From positions 2,340,220 to 2,404,219 of the forward strand of contig NZ_CP007128.1 of assembly GCF_000522985.1 (NCBI RefSeq): a stretch of DNA of 64,000 nucleotides, read 5' to 3'. The notes below the pieces were generated by a model. It was not told the DNA's origin. It was given only the letters and a program-made list of their open reading frames with translations, and did not search any database. This document shows, in pieces, positions 2,318-61,993 of this stretch. Numbering within the stretch: the first letter of the stretch is position 1; each line of letters starts with the position of its first letter. The stretch is from Gemmatirosa kalamazoonensis (GTDB lineage: Bacteria > Gemmatimonadota > Gemmatimonadetes > Gemmatimonadales > Gemmatimonadaceae). The position numbers were made by a program, and so were the translations under genes.

Positions 2318-2379
2318 TCGGGACTCGGGACTCGGGACTCGGGACTCGGGACTCGGGACTCGGGACTCGGGACTCGGGA
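2318..2379 (+). repeat. Tandem array TCGGGAC x8 (left arm)
   Basis: Eight perfect 7-nt units start at 2318, 2325, 2332, 2339, 2346, 2353, 2360 and 2367, followed by a near-unit ending at the stop codon of the S23-type gene (TAA on the minus strand at 2380-2382). There is no sequence between the ADOP stop codon and the array. Confidence 0.97.
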
Positions 2380-2748
2380 TTATTCGCGACGCGGGCCGAG
2401 GCGATCGTAGAGCTTCGTCAGCATCTGCCCGACGCGCTGGTTCAACACGAGCAGCTCGCGCAGATCGCCCTCGCCCAGGTAGCCGACCGAGATCGTCGTG
2501 AGCAGGTGGCCCTGCAGCTCGCGATTGGAAGACCTGGAGGTGCCGATGTATCGCCGATAGTTGGCGCGGGTCGGCGAAGCGTAGCCCTCCACGATGTTCG
2601 CGACGACGGAATTGGCAGCGCTCCGGATCTGAGCGGCAAGGCCGTACTGCTCCTCGTGAGGGAGTCGTCGGGCGACCACGAAGCTGACACGCTGCTGCTC
2701 CATGGCTCGCTGCCATACCTCGAGGTCGCGGAAATCGCCGAAGCCCAT
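2380..2748 (-). CDS. Four-helix-bundle protein, 23S rRNA intervening-sequence (S23) type
   Basis: A protein of 122 residues with the S23/IVP signature. It has an N-terminal FRDLEVWQRAM helix, then LPHEEQYGLAAQIRSAANS, then the family hallmark NIVEGY, then a helix carrying GTSRSSNRELQ, and a C-terminal KLYDRLGPRRE. Family knowledge: these proteins form pentameric four-helix bundles, are encoded in 23S rRNA intervening sequences of Leptospira and Coxiella, and resemble the Avd accessory protein of diversity-generating retroelements. Their molecular role is unproven. The ATG at 2746-2748 matches the usual family start; a GTG ten codons upstream (2778) is an alternative. No ribosome-binding site is obvious. 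The gene is bracketed by inverted GGGACTC arrays and is opposite in strand to both neighbours. Confidence 0.9.
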   Translation of the reverse strand: MGFGDFRDLEVWQRAMEQQRVSFVVARRLPHEEQYGLAAQIRSAANSVVANIVEGYASPTRANYRRYIGTSRSSNRELQGHLLTTISVGYLGEGDLRELLVLNQRVGQMLTKLYDRLGPRRE

Positions 2749-2842
2749 GAGACGGTCGGTGCGGGACGGTACTTGCACCGCACGCTACCGGACGCGCGGA
2801 GGGTCAATGCACCGTTCCGTTGCGGGATGGTCGAATTCAACG

Positions 2843-2903
2843 CCCGAGTCCCGAGTCCCGAGTCCCGAGTCCCGAGTCCCGAGTCCCGAGTCCCGAGTCC
2901 CGA
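2843..2903 (+). repeat. Tandem array CCCGAGT x8 (right arm)
   Basis: Eight perfect units start at 2843, 2850, 2857, 2864, 2871, 2878, 2885 and 2892, followed by a partial CCCGA. It is the reverse complement of the left arm with the same copy number. It ends one base before the GTG start of the following lipoprotein gene, so that gene's normal leader and ribosome-binding site have been replaced or displaced. Confidence 0.97.
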
Positions 2904-16280: not shown

Positions 16281-16545
16281 GCCGAGCCGCGCAGGACGCC
16301 GAGCCCGTTCGGGGCTGTGTGAACGAACCGCAGAGGACGCAGAGGGGCGCACAGGACTGCCTCTTCCTGCCCTTCTTGAATTCAACCACAGAAGACACGG
16401 AGGACACAGAGGAAACCAACAATTGAAGTGGTTCTCCTCCGTGTCCTCCGTGTCCTCTGTGGTTCAAATGAAAGGCTCTGCGCCCCTCTGCGTCCTCTGC
16501 GGTTCAATTCGAAGAGGCTGTCCTTCGCGTCCTCCGCGGCTCCGC
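16281..16545. repeat. Triple-nested palindrome (CAGAGGAC word family)
   Basis: It fills most of the 353-nt gap between two minus-strand genes and has three concentric stems. Layer 1: 16281-16304 with 16522-16545 (about 19 of 24 matched). Layer 2: GAACCGCAGAGGACGC at 16325-16352 with CTCTGCGTCCTCTGCGGTTC ending at 16505. Layer 3: CCACAGAAGACACGGAGGAC at 16385-16420 with the complementary arm 16430-16467. Each layer uses a different 8-10-nt word. The spacers AGGACTGCCTC and GGAAACCAAC recur in the element at 61.8-62.0 kb, which lies in the opposite orientation. The remaining ends (16242-16280, 16546-16594) show nothing recognisable. Confidence 0.9.
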
Positions 16546-23324: not shown

Positions 23325-24356
23325 ATGATCGGCATCTATCACGAGCACCCCGACTGGTTCCGCCCCCTGTTCGCGGAGCTGGAGCGGCGCGGTCTGCCCT
23401 ACGAGCGGATCGACGCGGCGAACCACCTGTACGATCCGACCGAGACATCGGTCCCCTGGTCGCTGGTGTTCAACCGCGCGTCGCCGTCGGCATACCTGCG
23501 CGATGCCCGCCAGACCACGTTCCACACGCTGCACTGGGTCCGGCACCTCGAGCGCCTCGGCGTCCCCGTCGTGAACGGGTCGTCGGCGTACGCGCAGGAG
23601 CTCTCCAAGGCGACGCAGATCGACATCCTGCAGGAGCTCGGGATCCCGCACCCGCGGACGCGCGTCATCAACAGCGCGGCGCGCGCGGTCGAGGCGGCGC
23701 GCGGCCTTCGCTATCCGGTGCTCGTGAAGGCGAACGTCGGCGGCAGCGGCGCCGGCATCGTGCGCTACGACAACGAGGAGCATCTCGCCACCGCCGCGCA
23801 GGCGGGTCTCCTCGACCTCGGCGTCGACGGCACCGCGCTCGTGCAGGAGTACGCGCCGCTGCGCGACGGCCGCATCACGCGCGTCGAGACGTTGGGCGGC
23901 GACTTCCTGTACGCCATCAACGTCTACCCGGCCGACACGGGCTTCAACCTCTGCCCGGCCGACGCGTGCATCACCGGCGAGGGCGTGGAGCTGTCGCGCG
24001 CAGCGTGCGCGCTCGACGCGCCGAAGAACGGGCTCCGCGTGGAGCGCGCCGACCCGCCCGCGGAGATCATCGACGCGATCGAGCGCATCGCGCGCCGCAC
24101 GCAGCTCGACGTCGGCGGCATCGAGTACCTCGTCGACGACCGCGACGGGCAGTGGTACGTCTACGACATCAACGCGCTGTCGAACTTCGTCGCCGACGCG
24201 CCGAACGTGATCGGCTTCGACCCGTTCGTGAACCTCGTCGACTACCTCGAGGCCCGGCTGAGCTCCGCGACGCTCCACGGTCCACGCTCGCCGCTCGCCG
24301 CGAGCGGCGCCGGAGCGAGCGCGGAGCGTGGAGCGTGGAGTGTGGAGGGAGTCTGA
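23325..24356 (+). CDS. ATP-grasp ligase (RimK-like)
   Basis: A protein of 343 residues with ATP-grasp order. There is a pre-ATP-grasp N-domain (IGIYHEHPDWFRPLF, NRASPSAYLRDARQ), the lysine strand YPVLVKANVGGSGAGIVRY with its glycine-rich loop, the adenine-linker region ALVQEYAPL, and the metal-binding end YVYDINALSNFV (Asp and Asn ligands). Such enzymes join a carboxylate to an amine or thiol through an acyl phosphate; substrates here are unknown. It overlaps the next gene by one base (TGATG), so the two form an operon. The last 31 residues (after DYLEARL) are encoded by a GAGCGTGG-type palindrome and are probably not native. Confidence 0.85.
   Translation: MIGIYHEHPDWFRPLFAELERRGLPYERIDAANHLYDPTETSVPWSLVFNRASPSAYLRDARQTTFHTLHWVRHLERLGVPVVNGSSAYAQELSKATQIDILQELGIPHPRTRVINSAARAVEAARGLRYPVLVKANVGGSGAGIVRYDNEEHLATAAQAGLLDLGVDGTALVQEYAPLRDGRITRVETLGGDFLYAINVYPADTGFNLCPADACITGEGVELSRAACALDAPKNGLRVERADPPAEIIDAIERIARRTQLDVGGIEYLVDDRDGQWYVYDINALSNFVADAPNVIGFDPFVNLVDYLEARLSSATLHGPRSPLAASGAGASAERGAWSVEGV
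24261..24348. repeat. Palindrome of GAGCGTGG words inside a gene's 3' end
   Basis: The left arm runs CGCTCCACGGTCCACGCTCG (24271-24290), the centre is GCCGCTCG...CGAGCGGC (24290-24308), and the right arm repeats GGAGCGTGGAGCGTGGAG (about 24322-24339). It shares its word with the hairpin at 56.76-56.83 kb. It lies within the reading frame of the ATP-grasp gene, just before its stop, and directly precedes the monooxygenase start. Confidence 0.85.
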
Positions 24357-25428: not shown

Positions 25429-25490
25429 CCGCTGCGTCGCTGCGTGACGGCGTCTTGTTGAGGGGACGCAGTCACGCAGCGACGCAGCGG
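25429..25490. terminator. Near-perfect 26-bp hairpin between convergent genes
   Basis: The arms 25429-25454 (CCGCTGCGTCGCTGCGTGAC...) and 25465-25490 are complementary with one mismatch across a 10-nt loop. The arm contains the word GCTGCGT twice. It is followed by TTTT on the plus strand, so it can act as a terminator for the monooxygenase operon. It is also one of the tandem-word palindromes of this window. Confidence 0.85.
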
Positions 25491-33127: not shown

Positions 33128-33211
33128 CGGAGAGGGCAGGAGGGCAGGAGGGCAGGAGGGCACGAGAGGTGATGGCTCCTGCCCTCCTGCCCTCCTGCCC
33201 TCCTGCCCTCT
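33128..33211. repeat. Palindrome of GGGCAGGA words between convergent genes
   Basis: Four GGCAGGAG-type units (33132-33167) and four complementary CTCCTGCC units (33176-33211) with a short loop. It begins at the base after the thioesterase stop and ends at the base before the PhzF stop, so it is the whole intergenic interval. It would form a hairpin of over 30 bp in transcripts from either side. The same word occurs at 44.0 and 45.8 kb. Confidence 0.95.
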
Positions 33212-40527: not shown

Positions 40528-40530
40528 GCG

Positions 40531-40590
40531 ACGCGTGACGCGTGACGCGCATCACCAACGGGGCGCGCGTCACGTGTCACGCGTCACGCG
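40531..40590. repeat. Palindrome of GACGCGT words between convergent genes
   Basis: ACGCGTGACGCGTGACGCGC (40531-40550) pairs with GCGCGTCACGTGTCACGCG onward (40564-40590) around a 13-nt loop. The interval runs from the signal peptidase stop to the stop codon of the convergent gene and has no other content. Confidence 0.9.
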
Positions 40591-43998: not shown

Positions 43999-44097
43999 CA
44001 GGGCAGGAGGGCAGGAGGGCAGGAGGGCAAGAGAGGGGCGCTGAGACTTCGGTCACAGCGCCCCTCTTGCTCTCGTGCCCTCTCGCCCTCCTGCCCT
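43999..44097. repeat. Palindrome of GGGCAGGA words
   Basis: The left arm has three GGGCAGGA units then GGGCAAGAGAGGGGCGCTG (to 44043). The right arm starts CAGCGCCCCTCTTGC (44056) and continues with CCCTC-rich units to 44097. The inner 15 bp pair perfectly, while the outer part is imperfect. It lies between two plus-strand genes. Confidence 0.9.
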
Positions 44098-45761: not shown

Positions 45762-45845
45762 AGGGCACGAGGGCAGGAGCGCAGGAGGGCAGGAGAGCCT
45801 AACGGTTCTCCTGCCCTCCTGCGCTCCTGCCCTCCTGCCCTCGTC
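45762..45845. repeat. Palindrome of GGGCAGGA words with mirrored variant unit
   Basis: The left arm (45762-45796) and right arm (45807-45845) lie around a loop holding GCCTAAC. Both arms carry the same off-consensus unit, GCGCAGGA on the left and TCCTGCGC on the right, in mirrored position. 28 nt pair perfectly. It fills the gap between the DUF3618 gene and the convergent exporter gene. Confidence 0.95.
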
Positions 45846-48244: not shown

Positions 48245-49135
48245 ATGCCGAATATACGACCGAACTACGACCTCGATACGCGCGGCGTGTCGCCGAACCG
48301 GGTGGGAGCTGGTAAGGAAATCGTACGGAACACTCCGCGCCGCGCGGTCGTCGCCGGCGCGGCGGGCGGCGCGCTCGCCGGGCTGTTGCTGCTCTTTCTC
48401 ATCGTGCCCGTCGCCGGCGTCGTCGGCGTCGATGGGGCCGCGGGGGCGCGGCTGCTCGTCACAGACGCGGAGCTGCGTGACGCGATCGCCCGCACCGCGG
48501 TCACCGCGACGACGGCCACGCTGGTCGCCGCGCTGACGGGGATCCCGCTCGCGTGGCTGCTCGCGCACCGCGCGTTCCGCGGGCGTCACGTCGTGGAGCT
48601 GCTGCTCGACCTGCCGCTCGTGCTGCCGCACCCGGTCGCGGGGATCGCGCTCCTGCTCGCGTTCGGGCGCACGAGCGCGGTCGGCGCGCGGCTGGCCGAG
48701 GCGGGGCTGCAGGTCGTCGGCACGCCGGTAGGCACCGTGTGCGCGATGCTGTTCGTGAGCGCGCCGCTGTTCGTGAGCGCGGCGCGCGAGAGCTTCGCCC
48801 GCATCGACCCGAGCCTGGAGCTCGTGGCGCGCACGCTCGGCGAGGACGCGTGGGGCGCGTTCCGGCGCGTCACGCTGCCGCTGGCGCGCCGGGGGCTGCT
48901 CGCCGGCGCGGTGGTGACCTGGGCGCGCGCGGTGAGCGAGTTCGGCGCCGTGGTGGTGCTCGCCTACAACCCGAAGGTGGTGAGCGTGTTGAGCTACGAG
49001 CGGCTCACCGGCTTCGGCCTGCGCGAGGCGCTGCCGGTCGCTGCCGCGCTGCTGCTCGTGTCGCTCGTGCCGCTGGCCGCGCTGCGGGCGCTCCGCACGC
49101 CGCGCCGTGGCTGGGACGCTGTGGCGATTCGATAG
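48245..49135 (+). CDS. Molybdate/tungstate-type ABC importer permease, orphan
   Basis: A protein of 296 residues with six helices. The BPD_transp_1 pattern is present: TAVTATTATLVAALTGIPLA, LLLDLPLVLPHPVAGIALLL, and the EAA loop ELVARTLGEDAWGAFRRVTL (Glu-Ala-Ala-like, Gly at the turn). VSEFGAVVVLAYNP is close to ModB/WtpB/CysT permeases. No ATPase or binding protein gene is nearby. A soluble N-terminal extension of about 30 residues before helix 1 makes the start uncertain. Confidence 0.8.
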   Translation: MPNIRPNYDLDTRGVSPNRVGAGKEIVRNTPRRAVVAGAAGGALAGLLLLFLIVPVAGVVGVDGAAGARLLVTDAELRDAIARTAVTATTATLVAALTGIPLAWLLAHRAFRGRHVVELLLDLPLVLPHPVAGIALLLAFGRTSAVGARLAEAGLQVVGTPVGTVCAMLFVSAPLFVSAARESFARIDPSLELVARTLGEDAWGAFRRVTLPLARRGLLAGAVVTWARAVSEFGAVVVLAYNPKVVSVLSYERLTGFGLREALPVAAALLLVSLVPLAALRALRTPRRGWDAVAIR

Positions 49136-56731: not shown

Positions 56732-56759
56732 CCGAGTCGGGCCACGAGGACCGCAACCC

Positions 56760-56826
56760 GAGCGTGGAGCGTGGAGCGTGGAGCGAAGAGTGAACAGAGT
56801 CGCTCCACGCTCCACGCTCCACGCTC
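56760..56826. repeat. Perfect 27-bp palindrome of GAGCGTG words inside the SUF operon
   Basis: GAGCGTGGAGCGTGGAGCGT and continuing (56760-56786) is an exact reverse complement of 56800-56826; the loop is 13 nt. The unit is GAGCGTG repeated three times. It lies between sufD and sufU2, which are on the same strand. It could therefore lower or separate expression of the distal genes, or serve as an RNase III site. No T run follows. Confidence 0.95.
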
Positions 56827-56831
56827 GACGC

Positions 56832-61814: not shown

Positions 61815-61993
61815 TTGAACCGCAGAGGGCCGCAGAGGGCCGCAGAGAACGGCAACCGCTTCAACTGCTTTTTTCACCACAGAGGACACAGAGAAAAACC
61901 ACTTTGTTGGTTTCCTCCGTGTCCTCCGTGTCCTCTGTGGTTCAAGACAACGAGGCAGTCCTCTGCGGCCCTCTGCGGCCCTCTGCGGTTCAA
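61815..61993. repeat. Double-nested palindrome, homologue of the 16.3-kb element
   Basis: The outer arms are TTGAACCGCAGAGGGCCGCA onward (61815-61848) and CTCTGCGGCCCTCTGCGG to 61993. The inner arms are CCACAGAGGACACAGAG (61877-61893) and CTCCGTGTCCTCTGTGG (to 61940). Read on the minus strand it shares the layout and spacers AGGACTGCCTC and GGAAACCAAC with the element at 16.28-16.55 kb. It lies between two plus-strand genes. A TTTTTT run (61869-61874) lies before the inner stem. Confidence 0.92.

Follow-up and report, generated by a model that had tools for sequence, protein, structure and literature searches.

Why does an S23-family gene occupy the loop of a long inverted repeat between two protein-coding genes? 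The question arises from one locus in a window of 64,000 nucleotides of the Gemmatirosa kalamazoonensis genome, which is the whole stretch of DNA analysed here. The left arm of this block (2318..2379, forward strand) is a tandem array of TCGGGAC in 8.9 copies, with the G-rich strand reading inward, and the right arm (2843..2903, forward strand) is its complement, an array of CCCGAGT in 8.7 copies; Tandem Repeats Finder reports 100% matches for both. The inverted-repeat comparison pairs the arms over 61 bp with no mismatch, around a loop of 464 nt, and the copy number of ~8.8 per arm is practically equal. The loop carries a gene for a 132-residue protein on the reverse strand (2380..2778, GTG at 2778), assigned by profile matches to PF05635 “23S_rRNA_IVP” (E = 1e-24) and to TIGR02436 “four helix bundle protein” (E = 1e-20), and this is the sole gene within the element. 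Its stop codon directly adjoins the left arm, and the spacer between its start and the right arm (2779..2842 in the sequence) is probably the leader of the S23 gene.

The block occupies the whole gap between its neighbours, an upstream gene for a MacB/FtsX permease (5-2317, stop at 2317) and a downstream gene for a GHL10 lipoprotein, whose GTG start at 2905 lies one base past the right array, and the S23 gene is antisense to both. The sequence-only reading of this locus, which described an S23 gene between inverted word arrays of equal copy number that fill the space from one gene's stop to the next gene's start, was therefore correct. PF05635 genes are also found in the loops of inverted-repeat stems in the 23S rRNA intervening sequences (IVSs) of Coxiella, Leptospira, and Brucella, whereas the present block lies between the permease and GHL10 genes, outside rRNA. 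Known RNA families in Rfam have no match within the window.

Is this arrangement peculiar to one locus? For each S23 gene, we compared the 400 bp on its left with the 400 bp on its right and took the score of their best inverted repeat. In the Gemmatimonadota, 79 of 97 S23 loci have arms with a score of at least 18, as compared to 1 of 386 swapped flanks and 1 of 117 sham intervals taken from those stretches. Sham intervals in the source genome reach this score in 2 of 540 cases, both of which are probably S23 elements of that stretch. Loci from other phyla (Pseudomonadota, Planctomycetota, Desulfobacterota, Acidobacteriota, Bacteroidota, Verrucomicrobiota, and others) reach it in 49 of 78 cases, in a cross-phylum sample that came from a three-protein S23 profile and is biased to consensus-like S23 proteins, while none of 136 sham intervals does. 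The swapped flanks of this set match in 15 of 459 cases, above the sham level, most likely because the Xanthomonadales loci have one word in common. Armed S23 genes with their own words thus span at least six bacterial phyla, and the S23-gene-in-arms design outside rRNA, which had been read from a single locus, is general.

The elements share a common build. The period is 7 in 46 of the 57 other-phyla loci scoring at least 16, a G-rich 5′ arm is present in 138 of 145, and the numbers of left and right units are within one of each other in 73% of the regular cases. The median element length is 534 nt, which leaves little room for a second gene. Arms are missing from about 10–20% of the S23 genes, for example L008 and L011. 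When 168 small ORF-genes of two genomes were scanned blind, just three had spanning arms (score of at least 16), and these are at the positions of the S23 genes L006, L009, and L012; in that set, inverted short-word arrays flank S23 genes more often than random genes.

Next, we investigated the source genome (G000; 7.48 Mb in four contigs, with a main contig of 5,311,527 bases), in which genome-wide counts were obtained from pattern searches and sampled stretches. It has nine S23 genes, and eight of them lie between inverted arms. The word or sequence of the arms changes from gene to gene: we found TCGGGAC, GAGCGTG, GAGGGCAG, TGCGTGGC, long words of 14–15 nt, and, for one arm pair, an irregular 71-bp perfect repeat. 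A weak S23 gene at C2:1503900 (L008) has no spanning arms, and lies between two unrelated arrays, of ACGCGGAG upstream and of GAGGGCAG downstream; it is possibly a decayed element. Inverted repeats with a score of at least 18 number 60 in 400 kb of the chromosome—a density of ~15 per 100 kb—as compared to 2 in a first-order Markov control of 400 kb, which excludes chance. We compared 66 gene-less hairpins from 464 kb with the arms of S23 elements: 36 match those of S23 genes in this genome (score of at least 16), none matches the 78 S23 elements of other genomes, and each of the eight armed S23 genes has gene-less kin within these 464 kb. In a smaller replicate with G005, 5 of 10 hairpins matched the genome's own elements, against one foreign match (score 18). 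For the window word, 19 of 20 further sites that we read consist of a G-array followed by a C-array, typically with four units per array and a loop of 8–25 nt. The loops GCGCTGCGGAC and GTGGGGGAGCAGT each recur among gene-less copies in both orientations, indicating that such miniatures were copied, while other gene-less loops are unique, so that not every copy traces to one progenitor.

The window itself contains nine gene-less inverted repeats with word-like arms, in agreement with the earlier count of about nine; a tenth pair at 48934/49611 is weak and not word-like. Two of the nine are longer inverted elements, with the words CCGCAGAGG (16325..16505) and CCGCAGAGGG (61815..61993), both common to an element (L173) that carries a GxxExxY gene (PF13366, PDDEXK_3), and their loops hold a second hairpin with the word ACACGGAGG and a hairpin of the CACAGAGGA type, respectively. 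The word GAGCGTG, as in the S23 element L002, forms the hairpins at 24273..24340, where the polarity is opposite and the 5′ arm is C-rich, and at 56759..56827. The hairpin at 33131..33211, with a 9-nt loop, has the word GAGGGCAG of the S23 element L001, and the one at 25429..25490 has a degenerate word related to that of the S23 element L009 (score 15.5, with a cut-off of 16). The inverted-repeat and tandem-repeat searches revealed two hairpins with the word AGGGCAGG (44000..44097 and 45762..45841), and the inverted-repeat comparison revealed one with GACGCGT (40530..40585), for which no master was found among the S23 and GxxExxY arms of the source genome that were compared.

By their words, these nine hairpins are part of other families, whose gene-bearing representatives appear to lie elsewhere in the genome, and the word of the window's own S23 element occurs in none of the nine. 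The proposal that the gene-less elements are derivative forms consequently stands in part: as the 36 matches among 66 hairpins show, they are kin of S23 elements, word by word, but they are not kin of the element beside which they were noticed. Elements are also nested in one another's loops. Nested hairpins with differing words are seen within the window elements 16325-16505 and 61815-61993 and at C2 345907 of the source genome, and their insert-free paralogs act as empty sites.

Do the words of a genome follow its S23 genes? We counted the window-word pattern CGGGACTCGGGACTCGGG (the CGGGACT word) in 30 genomes, with overlapping matches. Eight genomes whose S23 carries exactly this word contain 24–485 matches, the source genome contains 470, and G049, whose S23 has a degenerate form, contains 25; the remaining 20 of the 30 contain 0–1. 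The sister word GGGACC has 14–70 matches in the four genomes whose S23 has GGGACC and 0–5 matches elsewhere (0–1 in most sister genomes), with the exception of a Xanthomonas genome (G042), which has 216. On these counts, a difference of word between orthologous S23 genes goes with the same difference among the copies across each genome. S23 genes reach up to 12 copies per genome, with differing words, and the high-count genomes G040, G041, and G042 have one each. Tandem-word hairpins were absent from 788 kb of two S23-free Gemmatimonadota genomes.

Several genomes add observations of their own. G042 (Xanthomonas sp. AmX2) combines 389 CGGGACT matches with its 216 GGGACC matches, yet has one S23 gene, and this two-word state may record a recent word switch. 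In Microbulbifer, the stretch G040:C1:200001-300000 contains CGGGACT arrays with no inverted partner, one of them with ~17 units, in contrast to the paired hairpins of the source genome; as these 100 kb hold no paired word hairpin, many copies there are solitary arrays. The S23-free genome G003 (stretches L361-L380) has inverted repeats with GGTGACAGTGCACT- and CACGGAGG-type words, which are other hairpin families. In Granulicella (G055), the reversed control pattern GGGCTCAGGGCTCAGGGC matches 13 times, probably because of another heptamer array family.

How are the gene and its word inherited? Among S23 pairs that share a word across genera, 110 of 113 are syntenic orthologs, indicating that the S23 gene itself moves rarely and that the gene and its repeats are co-inherited, with words shifting jointly; word conservation is thereby ruled out as a proof of gene mobility. 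RAYT genes and REPINs are likewise inherited together (PMC8049555). The dN/dS of S23 is about 0.03–0.11 in most pairs, the mark of a protein under purifying selection, in contrast to the Coxiella ORF, which has been described as decaying. The arms of L203 and L217 are identical although synonymous sites are saturated. In comparisons between genera, pairs with more than 70% protein identity have the same word in 93 of 115 cases, and pairs with less than 60% in 69 of 10,317, figures that include shared ancestry. The window word is also found on S23 proteins only 34–41% identical to the window protein, so that the word is not set by protein similarity alone.

These properties suit a domesticated regulator, a vertically inherited S23 protein that binds dispersed arrays for termination, mRNA stability, or nucleoid structure and is immobile today. 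Syntenic orthologs with conserved words across genera, strong purifying selection, the strict G-rich polarity, and the ratio of one S23 gene to hundreds of sites are all as expected of such a regulator, as is the finding that, for 90% of the Xanthomonas heptamer repeats, two species have the same ORFs on either side (PMC4692102). An immobile regulator is nevertheless hard to reconcile with as many as 12 S23 copies of differing words in one genome, with miniatures that have common loops in both orientations, with elements nested in loops, and with whole elements missing at orthologous sites. We therefore regard it as unlikely, although it survives best among the alternatives.

The missing elements came to light in two genomes of one genus (G024 and G039). 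In G039, the flanks of L079 and of L084 are joined without the element, giving two orthologous empty sites, which could be deletions, as the comparison has no outgroup. The G039 ortholog of L010 retains the arm pair while much of the S23 gene is deleted, and three further elements are filled in both genomes. At the window locus, the orthologous site was not recovered, since the matches to the flanking genes did not occur together among the relatives listed; the empty sites anticipated for this kind of element come from the same-genus pair. Neither a target-site duplication nor a fixed target is evident among the gene-less copies and the two empty sites, whose boundaries are blurred by the arrays. 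The S23 gene and its word form one cognate unit, the copies of which are dispersed, and the elements come and go at orthologous sites.

S23 is not alone in this association. The arm words of GxxExxY genes account for most of the hairpins in the source genome that the S23 elements leave unexplained. Besides the loci of that genome (L169-L177), we inspected those of other Gemmatimonadota genomes (L292-L320 in G005-G022), in which 10 of 29 GxxExxY loci have spanning arms, as compared to 0 of 138 swapped controls, and another 10 of 29 have a separate hairpin alongside. Judging from these flanks, GxxExxY genes are a second gene class tied to word hairpins.

Could the hairpins have formed with no help from any protein, by slippage and arm-to-arm copying, and the S23 and GxxExxY genes be passengers that insert into the loops as safe sites? 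Elements do nest in hairpin loops, many gene-less loops are unique, and slippage of 7 nt was once proposed for such repeats, according to the statement quoted in PMC4679880, which concerns the TAACTGA repeats of Beggiatoaceae. However, a genome's words are those of its own S23 and GxxExxY elements, none of the 168 small genes other than S23 sits in such a loop, and the two S23-free genomes lack tandem-word hairpins in their 788 kb. Passenger genes are thus an improbable account of the correspondence between gene and word.

The likeness to rRNA IVSs raises another possibility, namely that the element acts at the RNA level: the stem in the transcript would be cut by RNase III, excision from the mRNA would render the insert harmless, and S23 would act on the excised RNA. 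The Coxiella IVS, an inverted-repeat stem-loop of about 430 nt with an S23 ORF, is excised by RNase III and has tandem repeats of the heptamer GACAGAT at the 5′ end (PMC4990558), so that the same protein family occurs there in the loop of a long stem. A preference for G-U over A-C mismatches on the S23-sense strand of the arms would betray selection on RNA, and a modest excess exists in the Gemmatimonadota (119:81, p = 0.009), but the other phyla do not have it (27:36) and all loci together give 146:117 (p = 0.08). This signal of RNA-strand selection is weak and inconsistent. Moreover, the window S23 gene is antisense to both of its neighbours, and spread through RNA requires a reverse transcriptase, while RVT_1 is missing in 10 of the 12 genomes tested, the source genome included. 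The blocks also differ from 23S rRNA IVSs in lying between protein genes, in having many copies with different words per genome, and in having cognate gene-less hairpins. The RNase III reading, with which the sequence-only reading had compared the block, remains an analogy, and as an explanation of these elements it is doubtful.

What kind of protein does the S23 gene encode? The AlphaFold model of the window protein is a four-helix bundle (pLDDT 92.7). Its best Foldseek match is 2GSC (XCC0516 of Xanthomonas campestris), followed by 2RLD and by Avd, the accessory protein of diversity-generating retroelements, whose structures 8UB7, 8UB8, and 4DWL give TM scores by target of 0.83–0.86. Despite this common fold, the S23 elements have neither a reverse transcriptase nor a template repeat, and the absence of RVT_1 from 10 of 12 element-bearing genomes makes an Avd-like role with a reverse transcriptase unlikely and rules out reverse transcription in trans. 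PADLOC gave no match to anti-phage defence systems, and PHROG gave none to phage families. An ordinary REP or REPIN family, mobilised by a RAYT (HUH Y1) transposase encoded elsewhere in the genome, would resemble these hairpins in form, polarity, copy number, and intergenic sites, but it is a very remote prospect and is ruled out for the source genome, where the loop gene is S23 and PF01797 has no match in a search that was positive in five control genomes.

We therefore favour, as on balance the probable explanation, that the block is the gene-bearing master of a dispersed word-hairpin family, organised like REPINs and RAYTs but with S23 as the master gene; its movement and the recognition of the word by S23 are the conjectural parts. 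Counting against it are the many unique gene-less loops, the rare movement of the S23 gene itself, the two abundant words beside one S23 gene in G042, the solitary arrays of Microbulbifer, the S23 genes that have no arms, the use of the window word by dissimilar S23 proteins, and the empty sites that could be deletions. RAYT genes are flanked by their own REPs. In REPIN-RAYT systems, a single-copy cognate gene that is inherited vertically accompanies inverted hairpin repeats scattered over the genome (PMC8049555), and the S23 system likewise pairs dispersed inverted hairpins with a cognate gene that has their repeat on both sides. The differences are that the partner is a non-catalytic four-helix bundle and not a Y1 HUH transposase (PF01797), that the arms are tandem arrays of 7–15-nt words, and that the gene lies within the loop. 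The gene-less copies are also comparable to MITEs, being short, non-autonomous versions, with inverted repeats, of an element that carries a gene; unlike MITEs and their DNA transposons, however, the S23 elements have no transposase gene, and their terminal repeats vary between elements.

On this explanation of a gene-bearing master, we propose that the S23 four-helix bundle binds its cognate word in the folded arm, and that the bound form would most likely be single-stranded DNA, extruded as a hairpin during replication. S23 would then assist in copying the word to further intergenic sites, as its own unit and also, in trans, as gene-less miniatures, thereby playing for these hairpins the role that the RAYT transposase plays for REPINs. 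We know of no catalytic site in S23, and the cutting and joining would for this reason fall to the replication and repair enzymes of the host. Arm-to-arm copying may maintain the equality of the arms. The same class could include the rRNA IVSs of Coxiella, Leptospira, and others, as members that landed in an rRNA gene.

The family may already have been seen from the side of its repeats. In Xanthomonas and Nostoc, G-rich heptamer arrays (GGGAATC and GGGGA(C/T)T, respectively) are intergenic and dispersed with a preference for four units, and those of X. campestris include 70 convergent pairs (PMC4692102). The publication treats them solely as G-quadruplex simple repeats, assigns no gene to them, and describes them as untied to mobile elements (PMC4692102). 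In Xanthomonas nasturtii, GGGATTC forms the arms of the second S23 gene, and of five proteins compared with XCC0516, the one encoded by this gene is the nearest (71% over 84 residues); together, these findings suggest that the orphan heptamer repeat of Xanthomonas is probably the word of an S23 element. Our search of the openly licensed literature found no paper that links S23 to dispersed repeats. Within that literature, the S23-word-hairpin system is unnamed and can be rated a new category, because it is neither an rRNA IVS, not being in rRNA, nor a REPIN-RAYT system, having no RAYT.

These results join three old puzzles: the function of the S23/IVP protein, whose structure was released in 2006, the origin of the rRNA IVSs, and the dispersed heptamer arrays that have had no owner. 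More broadly, and with somewhat less confidence than we place in the master-element explanation, we suggest that S23 and the GxxExxY PD-(D/E)XK proteins may be word-specific mobility factors of widespread hairpin repeats, which would explain the Xanthomonas heptamers, possibly those of Nostoc, and the origin of the rRNA IVSs. The word match between gene and repeat turns these puzzles into one testable system, in which a non-transposase protein would stand in the place of the transposase. It leads to predictions of the word bound by each S23 protein, and to the expectation that XCC0516, the protein of structure 2GSC, would be encoded between arrays of the GGGAATC type.
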